Positions 1 to 41,659 of a stretch of DNA of 41,659 bases are shown here, one piece after another. The first letter of the stretch is position 1. Each line of letters begins with the position of its first letter. The notes under the pieces are model-generated. The model ran no database searches and was not told where the DNA came from. It saw only the letters and a program-made list of their open reading frames with translations. The translations under genes and the position numbers were made by a program. This stretch comes from an uncultured Candidatus Melainabacteria bacterium (lineage in GTDB: Bacteria > Cyanobacteriota > Vampirovibrionia > Gastranaerophilales > Gastranaerophilaceae), in NCBI GenBank assembly GCA_947090755.1, contig CAMUPF010000015.1, positions 1 through 41,659 on the forward strand, in the 5' to 3' direction.

Positions 1-11
1 CCCCCCCCCCC
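1..11. repeat. C homopolymer (11 bases seen) at the window edge, beside prepilin copy 1
   Basis: The window opens with 11 consecutive C, immediately upstream of the conserved prepilin N-terminus of copy 1; its full length is unknown because it touches the edge. In the copy 1 frame it reads as a short proline run. Copies 2 and 3 carry a run of 12 or 11 G at the corresponding place on their coding strand; here the coding strand carries C, so this leader is not a simple duplicate of theirs. Confidence 0.8.
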
Positions 12-966
12 TCTCTTAACCGGCTTCACAATGGCGGAAATATTGTTGTCGTTGACAATAATCGGCGTAGTTGCAGCCATAACTTTACCGTCATTGACCG
101 GCAATATTAACGAAAGAACTTGGAACACACAACGAAAAGCACTTTATGCAAGATTTTCTCAAGGTTTGGCTTTAATGCCATCTTTAAGCGGATATGGAAC
201 TTATCAGCTTGCTGACGAAGCAACATCGACAAGCGCCGTCGACACAGCCGCTGAAACTTTTGTTACTGAAGGTTTATCTAAAGTTATTAAAATTAACAAC
301 ATTTGTGACCACGAGCACCTAGAAGATTGCGGTATCGTTGCTTCTTACACAAATATGGTCGGAAGTGTCAATTCTTGGCCGACTAAGCTGTCTGAACTAA
401 ATAGTATGTTTACAGGTACTTTTAGCAATGCTACGGGCAGTTACACAAATCCCCAAAAAGATATAGACACCAGGGCCGCCGCGTTTGAAACTCAAAACGG
501 AGAATCTATCGCGGTTTATTATAATCCCCAGTGTCAAAGCGATATGCAAGAAACTGCTACGCATATTATTCAACCCAAAATGTGTGCTAACTTTATTTAT
601 GATTTAAACGGTAATAAAGGCCCAAATACCGTTGGTAAAGATATTGGTTTTATTACGGCGCTGTATCCTTCTGATTCTGTTGTCGTTGCGCCAGTACCGA
701 CGCAACAGAATTTAACCAATACACACACCCAAACTCAAGCTACAGAAGCTTGTACAAGGATGGATTCCGAACTTAGAGTGCCAAATAAACATGAATTAGC
801 AGCGATGTTTTACAACAAGGATTTAATTGGTGGTTTATCAGGCAGTGCATATTGGTCAAATACAATCTTTTCACCGGATAAAGCTTGGGGTATAGATTTC
901 AATATTGGAAATATGGGCCCTATTGCACGAGATAATGGACGTTGGATACGCTGCGTCAAAAGATAA
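1..966 (+). CDS. Type IV prepilin-like protein with C-terminal Lcl_C/DUF1566-like domain, copy 1 (5' end missing)
   Basis: Surface or periplasmic fibre subunit of the type IV pilin/type II secretion pseudopilin class. The frame is open from base 1. The first ATG at 31 lies inside the conserved class III signal (G, then FTMAE with Glu at +5), so the true start is upstream of the window. A hydrophobic helix (EILLSLTIIGVVAAITLPSL) follows. The mature part carries six cysteines, a Ca-site-like DLNGNKGPNTVGKDIGF stretch and a C-terminal domain with PNKHELAAMFYNKDLIGG, YWSN and a final IRCVKR, as in Lcl_C/DUF1566 proteins. Paralogues lie at 12948, 38035 and 41523. The last ~26 residues align without gaps to the paralogues but differ at most positions. 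The exact function (adhesive minor pilin or pseudopilin) is inference. Confidence 0.85.
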   Translation, partial: PPPPLLTGFTMAEILLSLTIIGVVAAITLPSLTGNINERTWNTQRKALYARFSQGLALMPSLSGYGTYQLADEATSTSAVDTAAETFVTEGLSKVIKINNICDHEHLEDCGIVASYTNMVGSVNSWPTKLSELNSMFTGTFSNATGSYTNPQKDIDTRAAAFETQNGESIAVYYNPQCQSDMQETATHIIQPKMCANFIYDLNGNKGPNTVGKDIGFITALYPSDSVVVAPVPTQQNLTNTHTQTQATEACTRMDSELRVPNKHELAAMFYNKDLIGGLSGSAYWSNTIFSPDKAWGIDFNIGNMGPIARDNGRWIRCVKR

Positions 967-4865: not shown

Positions 4866-6231
4866 ATTTTTTGAATTTTTTAAGGAACCGCCGTCACAAC
4901 CGGTAATTGAAGACAAAGCAAAAGTCGACAGTATGTATGCTCACTGGAGATGGAGAATATTTTATTCTTGCTTTATCGGCTACACAGTGTTTTATCTTTG
5001 TAAGAAAAACATCGCGGTAGCGCTTCCGGGGTTGAGTGAGGAATTTAACTTCACTAACACCGAACTTGGTTTATTAGGCAGTTCACTCTATTTGACTTAC
5101 GGTATCGGTAAATTTGTAAACGGTGTTTTGGCTGATGGCTCTGACGTTAGAAAATTTTTACCGACAGCTCTGATTATGACAGCAATCGCAAACCTTTGCT
5201 TTGCACTGTCAGCAGTTTTCATCACTCCGGGTGAATTTACGTTCTTCGGACTTCCGACAAACACCATTATCCTCTGGTTATTCGTATTCTTCTGGGGCGC
5301 AAGCGGATGGTTCCAATCAGCAGGCTTCCCTGCTGTTGCAAAAAGTTTGACCTACTGGTATTCAAACTCTGAACGCGGAACTAAATGGTCATTATGGTCT
5401 TGCTCTCACCAGATGGGAACATTCCTGAGTGTAATCGTTTCAGGCTTTTTGGTTGCACACTACGGATGGAGAATGGCATTTTTCGTACCGGGTACAATTG
5501 CAATCCTTGTTGCAATCTGGTTATACAACAGATTAAGAGATAAACCGCAGTCACTCGGACTTCCTGACGTCGAATCTTACCGTGAAGAAGTTTCTGTGAA
5601 AAAAGATGCAGGCTGCGAAGTTGATAACAGAAGCTATCTTGAAGTTTTCAAAGAAAACATTTTATTCAACAAAACAATCTGGCTTCTTGCAATCGCTTAC
5701 GTATTCGTTTACGTAATCCGATTCGGCGCAGAAGACTGGATGATAAAATACCTTAGCGAAGCTAAAGCTAACAGCCTTGAACTGGCTTCATTGAAATTAA
5801 GTTCATTGCCGCTGGTTGGTATTGCAGGTACAGTATGCGCGGGCGTTATTTCAGACAAAGTTTTCAAAGGCAAACGTGCACCTGTTAACCTTATTTATTT
5901 AATCGGTGTTGTAGTTTGTTTGGTGTTGTTAAGATTCAACACAATCAGCACACTTGACTTTGTACTTATCGGCTTGCTCGGTGCGTTCACATACGGCCCG
6001 CAAATGATGATTGGTGGACTTTGCGCGGTAGAAAGTAGCTCTAAAAAAGTAGCGTCAGCCGCAACAGGTTTTACAGGAACCTTCGGTTATGTAGGTGCTG
6101 TTCTCTCTGCAACAGGTACAGGCTTTATGGTTGATAAATTCGGCTGGAACGGCGCGTTGTCATTCTGGATTGCTTCCGCTGTAATCTGTATTATAATTTG
6201 CGTAATGCTCTGGCAGAATGAGAAAAAATAG
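4855..6231 (+). CDS. OPA-family MFS transporter (organophosphate:phosphate antiporter, GlpT/UhpT/PgtP-like)
   Basis: Inner-membrane antiporter of the major facilitator superfamily with about 12 hydrophobic segments in 458 residues. The N-terminal YTVFYLCKKNIAVALPGL and GLLGSSLYLTYGIGKFVNGVLAD are characteristic of the organophosphate:phosphate antiporter family, as is WSLWSCSHQMG in the middle. Family members import glycerol-3-phosphate, hexose phosphates or phosphoglycerate in exchange for Pi; the substrate cannot be decided here, and UhpC-like sensing is also possible. It overlaps the upstream exonuclease gene by 11 bases and ends 35 bases before a terminator. Confidence 0.9.
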   Translation: MASKFFEFFKEPPSQPVIEDKAKVDSMYAHWRWRIFYSCFIGYTVFYLCKKNIAVALPGLSEEFNFTNTELGLLGSSLYLTYGIGKFVNGVLADGSDVRKFLPTALIMTAIANLCFALSAVFITPGEFTFFGLPTNTIILWLFVFFWGASGWFQSAGFPAVAKSLTYWYSNSERGTKWSLWSCSHQMGTFLSVIVSGFLVAHYGWRMAFFVPGTIAILVAIWLYNRLRDKPQSLGLPDVESYREEVSVKKDAGCEVDNRSYLEVFKENILFNKTIWLLAIAYVFVYVIRFGAEDWMIKYLSEAKANSLELASLKLSSLPLVGIAGTVCAGVISDKVFKGKRAPVNLIYLIGVVVCLVLLRFNTISTLDFVLIGLLGAFTYGPQMMIGGLCAVESSSKKVASAATGFTGTFGYVGAVLSATGTGFMVDKFGWNGALSFWIASAVICIIICVMLWQNEKK

Positions 6232-6265
6232 TCGACTGAGTCGACAACCATAATTGGTTGGTAAA

Positions 6266-6294
6266 AAAGGTGGGGATTTAAACCCGCCTTTTTT
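6266..6294 (+). terminator. Terminator of the exonuclease-transporter unit
   Basis: AAGGTGGG pairs with CCCGCCTT (one G-U pair) around an A/T loop and is followed by six T on the plus strand. Confidence 0.75.
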
Positions 6295-6301
6295 GTCCGA
6301 G

Positions 6302-6415
6302 AAAGACTCGCGATAAGGAACGTGAGTGAGTCTTTTGAGTGGCGTATTAGACAGCGGAGTCGCGGGTTGGCTTGCGTGAGCAGGACAAGCAGGCGACGGA
6401 GAACTGCTTTTAATG
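6302..6415 (+). repeat. Interspersed repeat, copy A
   Basis: A hairpin (AAAGACTC/GAGTCTTT, 6302-6335) is followed by a block that closely matches the sequence at 16751-16828: GAGTGGCGTATTAGACAGCG, a GC-rich middle ending in GCAGGCGACGGAG, and AACTGCTTTTA. The two copies start with hairpins of different sequence but the same layout. Core motifs (TGAGCAGGACAAGCAGGCG) also resemble the elements at 13908-14079 and 35100-35170. It is much richer in GC than its surroundings and no protein is supported in it. Confidence 0.7.
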
Positions 6416-12947: not shown

Positions 12948-14108
12948 TCATCGTTTTATACAGCGTACGTTGAGTGGGTAGGTCTTTGGATCCGGCCCGC
13001 GGACACCCGTATGGGAAACCAGGTGCAGCGCAGTCCCGGATTCGCCGGAAGAAACTACTGAGCCGGACCAGAAATCACCGGACGGAATACCAATAAGGTC
13101 TTTGTTGTAGAACATAGATGAGAGTTCGTCTATGTTAGGAAGTCTTGATTCAGCATCCATACTTGTGCATGCTTCACCAGCTTCTGTTTGCTTTTTTTGC
13201 CCGCTAACATTTCGGGTTAATGGTACCGGAGCAACGACAACGGGGTCACTGGAGTATAACGCAGAGATAAATCCGATGTCTTTACCAACAGTGTTCGGGC
13301 CCTTGTTTCCGTTCAAGTCATAGATGAAATTAGCACACATTTTAGGCTGTGAGTAATGCCAGCCTGTTTCTTCCATATCACTCTGACAATTCGGGTTGTA
13401 ATAAACGGCTACGGATTCCCCGTTTTGTGTTTCAAAAGCGGCAGCAAAAGTATCAATGTCTTTTTGGGGATTTTGATAGTTCTCTCCACCAGCTGCTGAA
13501 CCATTGCCGTAAGAGCTGGTGAACACAATGTTTAATTCAGACAATTTAGTTGGCCAAGAGTTCATACTGCCAGCCAAATTTGTATAAGAAGTAACAATTC
13601 CGCAGTCTTCTAAATGCTCGTGGTCACAAATGTTGTTAATTTTAATAACTTTAGATAAACCTTCAGTAACAAAAGTTTCAGCGGCTGTGTCGACGGCGCT
13701 TGTAGATGTTGCTTCGTCTGCAAGCTGGTAAGTTCCGTAACCACCTAATGACGGCATTAAAGCCAAACCTTGAGAAAATCTTGCATAAAGCGCTTTTCTC
13801 TGTGTATTCCAAGTTCTTTCGTTAATATTACCGGTCAAACTAGGCAATGTTATTGCGGCGACAACACCAATAATCGTTAATGACAGCAAAATTTCGGCCA
13901 TGGTAAAGGCGCAATGCTGGTTCTTCCGCCTGTCAAATCTTAGCTCAATTGCTTTGCAATTGGCAGATTTGTGCGCTCCTTTCACTCTCGTTCCAGTCGC
14001 AACGGCGGTGACATAATGCTCGCCTGCTTGCCCTGCTGACCGCAGGTCAACACCGCGAGCACCGGCTGACGCAGTCTTGCCCCCCCCCCCCTCAGCGGAA
14101 ATGCCCAT
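12948..14108 (-). CDS. Type IV prepilin-like protein with Lcl_C/DUF1566-like domain, copy 2 (leader frame out of phase)
   Basis: Paralogue of copies 1, 3 and 4. It has the class III signal core FTMAEILLSLTIIGVVAA, six cysteines, DLNGNKGPNTVGKDIGF, PNIDELSSMFYNKDLIG, FWSGSV and a terminal VRCIKR. The start with a proper SD (GGAGGT, 14145-14150) is the ATG at 14140, giving MKKQILKSRV as in copy 3, but with 12 G in the tract at 14080-14091 that frame leaves the pilin frame and stops at 13982-13984 after 52 residues. The frame shown uses an internal ATG at 14108, which has no SD. Ten or thirteen G would restore the long form. A ~162-base repeat insertion, a multiple of three, separates tract and signal core. 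The gene as sequenced is probably switched off. Confidence 0.8.
   Translation of the reverse strand: MGISAEGGGGKTASAGARGVDLRSAGQAGEHYVTAVATGTRVKGAHKSANCKAIELRFDRRKNQHCAFTMAEILLSLTIIGVVAAITLPSLTGNINERTWNTQRKALYARFSQGLALMPSLGGYGTYQLADEATSTSAVDTAAETFVTEGLSKVIKINNICDHEHLEDCGIVTSYTNLAGSMNSWPTKLSELNIVFTSSYGNGSAAGGENYQNPQKDIDTFAAAFETQNGESVAVYYNPNCQSDMEETGWHYSQPKMCANFIYDLNGNKGPNTVGKDIGFISALYSSDPVVVAPVPLTRNVSGQKKQTEAGEACTSMDAESRLPNIDELSSMFYNKDLIGIPSGDFWSGSVVSSGESGTALHLVSHTGVRGPDPKTYPLNVRCIKR
13908..14079 (-). repeat. Repeat insertion inside the leader of prepilin copy 2 (repeat copy C)
   Basis: Copy 3 has 10 bases between its G tract and the FTM codons; copy 2 has 172. The extra ~162 bases are GC-rich, contain TCAGCAGGGCAAGCAGGCGA as in the other repeat copies, and include a hairpin (AAATCTGCCAATTGC against GCAATTGAGCTAAGATTT). 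The length keeps the reading frame. The limits are set by comparison with copy 3 and are approximate. Confidence 0.65.
14080..14091. repeat. Homopolymer of 12 (G on the coding strand) in the leader of prepilin copy 2
   Basis: Twelve C on the plus strand, read as 12 G in the gene. It lies 49 bases after the SD-linked start, and gain or loss of bases switches the downstream frame. Such tracts are well known as contingency loci in other bacteria. Confidence 0.85.
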
Positions 14109-15626: not shown

Positions 15627-16706
15627 ATGATTATAGAAGATTTATTAGAACAACTTGTAAGAGAAGGGGGTAGTGACCTTCACGTGTCAAGCAACTTATC
15701 CCCTGTTATTCGTGTGGATGGTAAGTTAAAACGTATTGATGTTCCGCCTCTTAGTCCGCAGGATGTTGAAACTTTATTGTTCCCTATGCTTTCTAATGAA
15801 CAACGCCGGAAACTTGAACAGGACTGGGAACTTGACTTTTCTTACGGGATTGAAGGCCTTAGCCGTTTCAGGGTAAACTTCTATAAAGATAAAGGTAATT
15901 ATGCGGCTGCATTCCGTACTATTACATCTACTGTTCCGAGTTTTGAACAACTTGGACTTCCTGAAGTTGTCAAACGTACCGCGAATTCGCCCAGAGGGCT
16001 TGTGCTGGTTACAGGGCCTACCGGTTCCGGTAAATCTACAACACTTGCGGCTATGATTGACCATATTAACCAGACAAAAGCAGAGCACATCCTTACAATC
16101 GAAGACCCTATCGAGTTTGTGCATACGTCCAAGAAAAGTGTTGTTCACCAGCGTGAATTAGGTATGGACACACGTTCGTTTGCTAACGCTCTTAAATCCG
16201 CACTCCGTGAAGACCCTGATATCATTCTGGTCGGTGAGATGCGTGACTTTGAAACAATTTCTCTTGCTCTGACAGCGGCTGAAACAGGTCACTTAGTGTT
16301 CGGTACACTTCACACCTCTTCTGCTTCACAAACCGTTGACCGTATTATCGACGTTTTCCCTGAAGGTCAGCAGCAACAAATTCGTGTACAGATTGCAAAC
16401 TCTCTTGTTGCGATTTTTGCACAAACACTTTTGCCGAAAACGCTTCCGGACGGAACGAAAAAAGGTCGTGTAATGGCTCAGGAAATTCTTATTTCTAACG
16501 GTGCAATCTCCAACCTTATTCGTGAAGGTAAATCCGCTCAGATTTATTCTTCTATCCAGATGGGACAAGGACAGGGCATGCAAACTCTTGAAGCATCACT
16601 TGCGGAACTTTGTAACAAAGGACTTGTTACTGTTGAAGACGCGCTTGCAAAAACTTCAAGACAGGAAGAGTTTAAACGTCTTTTGAAAGAAGCTAAAGAA
16701 AGATAA
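15627..16706 (+). CDS. pilT: Twitching motility ATPase PilT
   Basis: Hexameric ATPase that depolymerises type IV pili and powers retraction, twitching and DNA uptake. In 359 residues one sees the N-terminal GGSDLHVSSNLSPVIRVDG, Walker A GPTGSGKST (about 130-138), the Asp box, Walker B DIILVGEMRD (about 197-206), the His box TGHLVFGTLHTSSA, and the PilT hallmark AISNLIREGKSAQIYSS. It shows that the host has a retractable type IV pilus system, into which the prepilin-like proteins of this window could fit. It is followed by a repeat instead of a standard terminator. Confidence 0.96.
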   Translation: MIIEDLLEQLVREGGSDLHVSSNLSPVIRVDGKLKRIDVPPLSPQDVETLLFPMLSNEQRRKLEQDWELDFSYGIEGLSRFRVNFYKDKGNYAAAFRTITSTVPSFEQLGLPEVVKRTANSPRGLVLVTGPTGSGKSTTLAAMIDHINQTKAEHILTIEDPIEFVHTSKKSVVHQRELGMDTRSFANALKSALREDPDIILVGEMRDFETISLALTAAETGHLVFGTLHTSSASQTVDRIIDVFPEGQQQQIRVQIANSLVAIFAQTLLPKTLPDGTKKGRVMAQEILISNGAISNLIREGKSAQIYSSIQMGQGQGMQTLEASLAELCNKGLVTVEDALAKTSRQEEFKRLLKEAKER

Positions 16707-37980: not shown

Positions 37981-38007
37981 AAAAAAGGCGCGGGGGCCCC
38001 GCGCCTT
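37981..38007 (-). terminator. Terminator of prepilin copy 3
   Basis: GGCGCGGG pairs with CCCGCGCC; on the minus strand it is followed by TTTTTTAA. It lies 28 bases after the stop. Confidence 0.85.
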
Positions 38008-38034: not shown

Positions 38035-39060
38035 TTAACGTTTCACGCAACGAACGAGGTAGCCAACGGACCGCGGTTCCGGGTCGCGGTGGCCCGTATT
38101 GAAACCCTGGTCCCATGCTGTGCCAGACTCACCAGAAGAAATGACAGAGCCGGACCAAAAGCTACCGGACGCAATACCAATGAGGTCACGGTTGTAGAAC
38201 ATAGCGCTCAGTTCATCCCTGTTTGGAAGTCTGGATTCAGCGTCTAATTTAGTGCATGCTTCACCTGCTTCGGTTTGCTTTTTAGTACCTGAAACATTTT
38301 GAGCCAATGGAACCGGTGCTACTACAATGGGGTCAGAAGGATAGAGCGCTGTAATAAATCCAATATCTTTCCCAACAGTATTCGGCCCTTTGTTACCATT
38401 TAAGTCATAGATAAAATTTGCACACATTTTTGGCTGTGAATAGTGCCAACCTTCACCCATATCAGCTTGGCAATTCGGGTTGTAGTAAACAGCGATAGAT
38501 TCACCGTTTTGAGTTTCGAATGCAGCGGCCTTGGTGTCTATGTTTTTCTGCGGGTTTTGGTAGTTAGTACCGCCGTTAGAACCACCATCGTTCCATGTGC
38601 CGGTAAACATTGAGTTCATTTCGCTTAACTTAGTCGGCCATGTCTTGATACTTCCTGCCAAGTTAGTATAAGAAGTAACAATCCCGCAATCTTGTAGATG
38701 GTCATGGTCGCAAATGTTGTTAATCTTAATAACTTTACTTAACCCTTCTGTAACAAAAGTTTCGGCTGCTGTGTCCTGCGCGCTTGTACCCGCAGTTGCG
38801 TCTGCAAGTTGGTAAGTACCGTAACCACTAAGTGACGGCATTAAAGCCAAACCTTGAGAAAATCTTGCATAAAGTGCTTTTCGCTGCGTGTTCCACGTAC
38901 GCTCGTTAATGTTGCCGGTCAAACTAGGCAAAGTAATCGCTGCGACAACCCCGATGATTGTGAGGGATAATAAAATTTCCGACATTGTGAAGGCAATCTT
39001 ACCCCCCCCCCCTGAGCAGAATGTCCATATTACACGGCTTTTCAGAATTTGTTTTTTCAT
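38035..39060 (-). CDS. Type IV prepilin-like protein with Lcl_C/DUF1566-like domain, copy 3 (leader in frame)
   Basis: 341 residues. The leader MKKQILKSRVIWTFCS continues through the G tract (GGGG in the protein) to KIA and the class III core FTMSEILLSLTIIGVVAA, with Glu at +5. The mature domain has six cysteines, DLNGNKGPNTVGKDIGF, PNRDELSAMFYNRDLIG, FWSGSV and VRCVKR. SD GGAGG lies close to the ATG. With 11 G the frame is intact, so this copy is on. Its promoter sits inside the 3' end of rnhB, and a terminator follows. It is the reference copy for the family in this window; assembly into type IV pili is inferred. Confidence 0.9.
   Translation of the reverse strand: MKKQILKSRVIWTFCSGGGGKIAFTMSEILLSLTIIGVVAAITLPSLTGNINERTWNTQRKALYARFSQGLALMPSLSGYGTYQLADATAGTSAQDTAAETFVTEGLSKVIKINNICDHDHLQDCGIVTSYTNLAGSIKTWPTKLSEMNSMFTGTWNDGGSNGGTNYQNPQKNIDTKAAAFETQNGESIAVYYNPNCQADMGEGWHYSQPKMCANFIYDLNGNKGPNTVGKDIGFITALYPSDPIVVAPVPLAQNVSGTKKQTEAGEACTKLDAESRLPNRDELSAMFYNRDLIGIASGSFWSGSVISSGESGTAWDQGFNTGHRDPEPRSVGYLVRCVKR
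39002..39012. repeat. Homopolymer of 11 (G on the coding strand) in the leader of prepilin copy 3
   Basis: Eleven C on the plus strand, 48 bases after the start codon, coding for four Gly. Gain or loss of one base would break the frame before the signal core. Confidence 0.85.
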
Positions 39061-41522: not shown

Positions 41523-41659
41523 TTATCTTTTCACGCAACGGACATTGCAGCCACTGGAGCGCGTGAGCGGGGCGCGGGTGGACGTATTGAAATTCTGGTC
41601 CCATGCTGTGCCGGACTCTCCGGAAGAAATGACAGAACCGGCCCAAAAGCGACCTGATG
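41523..41659 (-). CDS. Type IV prepilin-like protein, copy 4 (C-terminal fragment cut by the window)
   Basis: Only the last 45 residues are inside. They show FWAGSVISSGESGTAWDQ, then a variable stretch, then NVRCVKR, matching the end of copy 3. The DNA up to the codon for Gln is nearly identical to copy 3 except for silent changes and two replacements; the next ~19 codons differ mainly at codon positions 1 and 2. The rest of the gene, including any G tract, is outside. Confidence 0.85.
   Translation of the reverse strand, partial: SGRFWAGSVISSGESGTAWDQNFNTSTRAPLTRSSGCNVRCVKR

Follow-up and report, generated by a model that had tools for sequence, protein, structure and literature searches.

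Type IV pilin variation in Neisseria proceeds by gene conversion between pilE and the silent pilS cassettes. In N. meningitidis, moreover, 115 genes are phase-variable through homopolymers (PMC5084427). Among diversity-generating retroelements (DGRs), the TvpA system of Treponema denticola is a cellular DGR with multiple targets, two to seven in number (PMC4891356), and Trichodesmium erythraeum carries 18 loci with homology between template repeat (TR) and variable repeat (VR) (PMC8867640). Cyanobacterial DGRs with remote variable proteins have also been described, the targets being mostly predicted to be cytosolic, in a paper that makes no mention of pilin or Melainabacteria (PMC7517822). For Bacteroides, type V pili with DGR-diversified tip pilins are reported (Macadangdang et al., cited in PMC12632263). 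Three elements are each known by themselves: the DGR that serves several remote targets, the pilin of a class other than type IV that is varied by a DGR, and poly-G phase variation. Searches of the open-access literature, which held few subscription journals and no preprints, returned nothing on DGRs together with Melainabacteria or on phase variation together with Gastranaerophilales, and within that same literature no report joins all three elements in a type IV prepilin family of the size described below.

The prepilin genes of the window

The window, meaning the whole stretch of 41,659 nucleotides analyzed here, is contig C15 of an assembly (GCA_947090755.1, Candidatus Gastranaerophilus, hereafter G000) that comprises 1.78 Mb in 53 contigs and is 99.98% complete. 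The genus includes the named Candidatus Gastranaerophilus phascolarctosicola along with other Gastranaerophilales. An earlier note on the window had proposed that a hypervariable block at the 3' end of two prepilin genes is the work of a DGR, and four prepilin copies are resolved among the following features:

1..966, plus strand: prepilin copy 1, truncated at the contig end, with a tail too diverged for the template to be recognized
12948..14108, minus strand: prepilin copy 2, with a weakly template-like tail
14080..14091, minus strand: leader-region poly-G tract of copy 2 (12 G)
15627..16706, plus strand: PilT-family type IV pilus ATPase (TIGR01420, 501 bits, cut-off 319)
37985..38007, minus strand: GC-rich hairpin after copy 3, a probable terminator and possibly a DGR homing hairpin as well
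38035..39060, minus strand: prepilin copy 3, with a poly-G-bearing leader, an N-terminal pilin helix (FTMSEILLSLTIIGVVAAITLP) and a predicted C-type-lectin-like C-terminal domain; putative DGR target
38045..38172, minus strand: VR of copy 3, 88% identical to the template repeat at C19:1090-1225, with 14 of 15 changes at template adenines
39002..39012, minus strand: leader poly-G tract of copy 3, 11 G as read on the coding strand; at this length the assembled gene is in frame
41526..41659, minus strand: C-terminal tail of prepilin copy 4, the gene body being missing at the contig end
41533..41657, minus strand: VR of copy 4, 83% identical to the template, with changes at 11 A and 9 non-A bases

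The reading frame of copy 3 is open from MKKQILKS. At the start of copy 1 (window positions 1-11) the coding strand carries poly-C at the place where other copies carry poly-G, which is likely a contig-end artefact.

A dispersed prepilin family with a predicted lectin-like tip

With copy 3 as query, 137 matches were obtained in its own genome, some of which are contig-end fragments, and 114 N termini and 110 full-length genes were extracted from them. About nine tails of some 130 still match the template. The earlier note had missed the more than 100 family members, these roughly nine tails and the poly-G tract present in most copies. Since the much less fragmented assembly G004 gives a similar count (108 matches, about 105 genes), the copy number in G000 is no artefact of fragmentation. 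By simple arithmetic, about 130 copies of about 1 kb would occupy roughly 7-8% of the genome.

The first 220 residues of the protein are mostly conserved, with block means for the majority residue of 0.8-1.0 interrupted by two variable stretches, and the mean for the last 40 residues is about 0.35. Prepilin hallmarks are present in the form of an (A/G)-FTMAEILLSLTIIGVVAAITLP leader and cleavage site, with F1, E5 and most of the helix invariant; matches to type IV prepilin profiles are weak and below cut-off, and a profile of the family had no match among solved structures. AlphaFold2 modeling on the 110-sequence alignment (pLDDT 91) returned a long N-terminal helix (residues 3-50) and a C-terminal domain for which the best structure match is the C-terminal domain of Legionella Lcl (8q4e, E=1.6e-5), followed by C-type lectins. 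The Pfam Lcl_C model scores 19.6 bits, below its cut-off of 34.9. The C-type-lectin-like domain named in the earlier note thus gains the backing of structure prediction, and we assign the family, on its hallmarks and predicted fold, to type IV prepilins with a C-type-lectin-like tip, assembly into a pilus and ligand binding being inferred. The genome also encodes pilus machinery, namely PilB-like and PilT ATPases and a prepilin peptidase.

Most of the prepilin genes are solitary and scattered over the chromosome, and a hairpin lies within 75 nt of the stop codon in 81 of 110 genes, compared with 5 of 110 in shuffled sequence. The site of copy 3, between rnhB and adhE, holds a prepilin gene in G000 and is empty in G001 and G002; in G003 a prepilin gene also follows rnhB. 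By sequence, then, the copies are dispersed and turn over. The gene unit contained no transposase, and the sole occupied/empty site compared showed neither obvious repeats nor a duplication. In G004 the strand of the copies follows the contig, mostly plus on C1, C4, C9 and C10 and mostly minus on C8, which suggests co-orientation with replication.

A DGR on contig C19

The earlier note was correct that the window holds neither a reverse transcriptase (RT) nor a template, both of which lie on contig C19. The genome search that it had proposed for a DGR-type RT and a template was positive, and the template carries AAC or AAT exactly at the variable codons. Contig C19 begins in a prepilin tail, followed in order by avd, the template repeat and the RT:

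L034:555-923: Avd gene (PF22296, bAvd, 48.3 bits, cut-off 40; PHROG "Avd protein of DGR", E=6.6e-20)
C19:1090-1225: template repeat, a 136-bp orphan copy of the block in copies 3 and 4
from about C19:1290: DGR RT

The template repeat reads ASGNFWSGSVISSGESGTAWNQNFNTGNRNPNTRSNGNNVRCVRR, with AAC or AAT at ten codons. Since NNY codons are never stops, up to ten positions would be free to vary. Matching VRs were found at nine places besides the C19 template itself. The RT gives a 59-bit match to RVT_1 and contains the motifs IGNLTSQ and catalytic YVDD. Its best PDB sequence match is 8ub7 (E=1.6e-41), part of a series that we take to represent the DGR of Bordetella phage BPP-1; group II RTs are far behind (3.6e-8), and the match to phrog_1423 has E=5e-98. 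The identities of RT and Avd rest on Pfam, PHROGs and PDB matches, those in NCBIfam being below its cut-offs. On such matches, without an RT tree, the C19 RT is placed in the DGR group, and assignment as a group II intron or retron RT was rejected because these matches were far under the curated cut-offs.

The genome contains three RVT_1 genes, and neither of the other two is the source of the C19 template: the RT on C11 is retron-like and that on C16 belongs to a separate DGR beside a lysozyme-like gene. The C11 gene (L003:1381-2298) resembles retron St85, under the curated cut-off. The second DGR lies in L119 (C16:30000-40076), with VR at 5617-5743 and TR at 6259-6385, and all 13 of its template-VR differences fall at template adenines; because the lysozyme-like gene adjoins, this DGR is probably in a prophage. 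The conserved stretch of the C19 template had no match in IMG/VR.

In several species the two repeats, TR and VR, cease to match at a common 3' point (CAGGTGATAA versus CAGGAG...), where an IMH-type element would be expected. No hairpin was found directly after the C19 VR, although hairpins do follow most genes of the family. Four contigs end in the 5' part of a VR (the starts of C19 and C30, the end of C32, and the end of C15 at window position 41659), as if near-identical gene bodies or mixed alleles had halted the assembler.

An RT was found in all seven genomes of the genus, with 82-88% identity to the C19 RT in five of them and 64% in G005, and template-like DNA is likewise present in 7/7. 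Most other genera of Gastranaerophilaceae are without a C19-type RT. In G002 the VR at the DGR locus (G002:C22:114842-114977) matches the template at every base of the repeat and its gene is without a poly-G tract, which possibly represents an unmutated state or an assembly chimera. The corresponding VR in G004 contains a run of N.

Adenine specificity of the substitutions

The two tails compared in the earlier note sit on the minus strand where it had placed them, at 38047-38103 in copy 3 and 41535-41591 in copy 4, and the hypervariability that it saw over these 19 codons stands; its count of 18 base differences does not, since a recount gave 17, distributed 6/7/4 over the three codon positions instead of 7/8/3. 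The 20 preceding codons hold 8 base differences (3/1/4). The pattern goes beyond chance: eleven of the 17 differing positions are A in the C19 template, though A makes up 16 of its 57 bases there, and against the template itself copy 3 has 9 A and one C changed within the block. Over the whole repeat (122 bases) the changes in copy 3 amount to 14 A, 1 C, 0 G and 0 T.

When eight VRs close to the template are pooled, A is changed at 103 of 232 positions (44%) and other bases at 43 of 744 (5.8%; Fisher OR 13, p=5e-40), a p-value that overstates independence because the eight are related genes. The spectrum of the A changes is A to G 53, A to T 27 and A to C 23. Adenines in GGAGAG and CACAGCATGG are almost never changed, and are probably kept by selection on the fold. 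In the VRs on C19 and C30 half of the adenines differ from the template (29 of 58) and all 186 non-A bases are unchanged, and we consider these two clean repeats sufficient by themselves for the case for adenine specificity. The weakly template-like tail of copy 2 has 19 of 29 A and 26 of 93 non-A bases changed (OR 4.9, p=4e-4). The earlier hypothesis of a DGR is thus supported by an RT, an Avd gene, a template repeat and substitutions specific to adenine.

One alternative hypothesis does without DGR activity and attributes the hypervariability of the block to diversifying selection or to gene conversion among paralogues. Donors for conversion would be plentiful among more than 100 paralogues, and the tails across the family have no third-position deficit, a test that is uninformative here, as the diverged tails vary at all three codon positions. 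Selection or conversion would nonetheless have to account for the complete restriction to adenine in the two clean VRs, and for the recurrence of the same template beside an RT in the genus, where species-specific VRs are altered almost solely at A (A/other changes: 10/1 in L125, 10/1 in L127, 9/2 in L128, 19/1 in L129 and 9/1 in G004). Moreover, no pair of tails is more than 81% alike among 110 aligned copies, so that recent conversion tracts are not seen. The adenine specificity already contradicts this hypothesis, and we give it hardly any credence.

On which tails, then, would the retroelement act at present? Only those on C19 and C30 combine purely adenine changes with retention of the template 3' flank. 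The remaining six close VRs have 43 of 558 non-A bases changed, from 7 to 57% of the changes in each being non-A, and most of the eight VRs are therefore not freshly rewritten. This leads to a second alternative, in which the DGR is real and now acts on one or a few genes (the neighbor of avd, perhaps the C30 tail), the copies in the window being former targets that drift and are kept variable by selection. The relatives, which have only one or two template-like VRs each, fit it as well. The pattern in copy 3, with 14 A changes and a single non-A change over 122 bases, would be hard to reach by drift, and the template-matching copies have tails as alike as their bodies (0.81 vs 0.79; 0.76 vs 0.74), whereas across the whole family tails are far more divergent than bodies (0.40 vs 0.62), as would be expected if retrohoming keeps resetting the former. 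We rate this alternative as a possible but rather doubtful one, and copy 3 may be either presently rewritten or a recent former target, which these data do not distinguish.

In the 103 copies that are not close to the template, the columns that match template AAY codons are still the most variable (entropy 3.79 vs 2.48 bits, p=1.5e-5). This fits descent from DGR targets, and it also fits surface exposure in a lectin fold. With about nine of 130 tails template-like, the others could vary by drift and selection alone.

Poly-G tracts in the leader

Most copies carry a poly-G tract of 9-14 nt in the leader, between the start codon and the prepilin-peptidase site (typically MKK...GGGG...AFTMAEILL), with lengths that cluster at 11-13 nt. 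DNA that had been chosen around prepilins contained 88 G runs of at least nine bases, and 83 of them precede a prepilin N terminus on its coding strand at a distance of no more than 330 nt; given how the DNA was chosen, this fraction does not describe the genome as a whole. The whole genome contains 487 overlapping G9 words, and the window has 13 G8 matches where 0.08 are expected. A start could be assigned in 80 genes. The tract leaves 15 of them in frame and puts 65 out of frame; of the latter, 55 would be restored by the loss of one G or the gain of two, 8 by the reverse and 2 by neither. In G004, 9 of 30 genes are in frame and 14 out of frame.

It could be argued that the tracts are no contingency loci and reflect noise in the assembly or merely the G-rich codons of the leader, since assemblers often get homopolymers wrong and contigs tend to end in them. 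Indeed, homopolymer lengths from short-read metagenomes may be off by one, which leaves single ON/OFF calls uncertain, and the length differences recorded here are between paralogues only, without read data. Noise would not readily give lengths clustered over so narrow a range or a change of 1-2 nt that reopens 63 of the 65 out-of-frame genes. Moreover, the tracts recur across the genus: five of the six other genus genomes contain 339-903 ten-mers of G, the sixth, G005, has few prepilin copies and no such run, and in the other families of the order every genome but one holds between 0 and 6. We find the noise explanation unlikely; poly-G slippage probably switches most copies on and off, the switching itself being inferred.

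Many ten-base G runs also occur in G025, G009, G018, G021 and other genera of the same family that lack close prepilin matches, where they perhaps mark other phase-variable families. On C1 of the present genome poly-G is found in at least two genes that are not prepilins (L158:42-1715 and L157 near 1734), and these are possibly phase-variable too.

Proposed model and comparison with known systems

We hypothesize, and regard as highly probable, that a cellular DGR rewrites the tails of the prepilins while poly-G slippage selects the subset expressed. RT and Avd would copy the template RNA, making mistakes at its adenines, and the resulting cDNA would replace the VR at the 3' end of the gene, which is the C-terminal 120-150 bp of prepilin genes. 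Up to ten AAY codons in the lectin-like tip domain would be randomized to NNY without ever creating a stop, the hypervariable block of copies 3 and 4 being one such VR. Slippage of the tract by one or two G would toggle translation, such that a cell would make only some of its pilins, and not always the same ones (the assembly has 15 of 80 genes in frame). Of this model, the DGR parts, the adenine-specific differences, the poly-G frames and the presence across the genus are read from the genome sequences and the fold is predicted; current DGR activity, switching, pilus assembly, ligand binding and the descent of the diverged copies are inferences.

If true, adenine-directed retrohoming and homopolymer phase variation would be joined in one surface gene family that takes up about 7-8% of a small genome, and the bacterium could keep altering the binding of its surface fibers. 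The model makes it testable how a DGR can feed a repertoire beyond its direct targets, and suggests, as a concrete hypothesis, a means of attachment, or of escape from phages or host immunity, in uncultured Gastranaerophilales of the gut. More tentatively, with a little less than even confidence, we propose a repertoire in two layers, in which the DGR locus generates tips, copies are seeded into about 100 sites as an archive, and poly-G slippage picks the few that are displayed.

The arrangement resembles the Treponema and Trichodesmium DGRs in having one or two RT/template cassettes, several remote targets with 3'-end VRs in a C-type-lectin fold, and some targets that drift from the template. 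It differs from them in its type IV prepilin targets, a family of more than 100 members and poly-G in the leader, features found in neither PMC4891356 nor PMC8867640. With the cyanobacterial DGRs it shares dispersed C-type-lectin paralogues and the same phylum-level group. As in BPP-1 (Mtd/Avd/bRT), there are an RT, Avd, adenine mutagenesis and a C-terminal lectin-fold VR; unlike BPP-1, the system is chromosomal, with pilin targets at many loci. As in the Bacteroides type V system, a DGR would vary the part of a pilus subunit that is presumed to do the binding, again in a gut bacterium; the present system differs in its type IV prepilin, type V pili being an unrelated pilin class, and in its large dispersed repertoire and its poly-G tracts. 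Neisseria likewise combines type IV pilin variation with slippage at simple repeats, but here a retroelement would bring about the sequence change that conversion from silent cassettes brings about there, and the copies are entire genes, most of them followed by a terminator of their own. The two-layer reading would be an equivalent of Neisseria pilE/pilS, driven by a retroelement and with no need for gene conversion.
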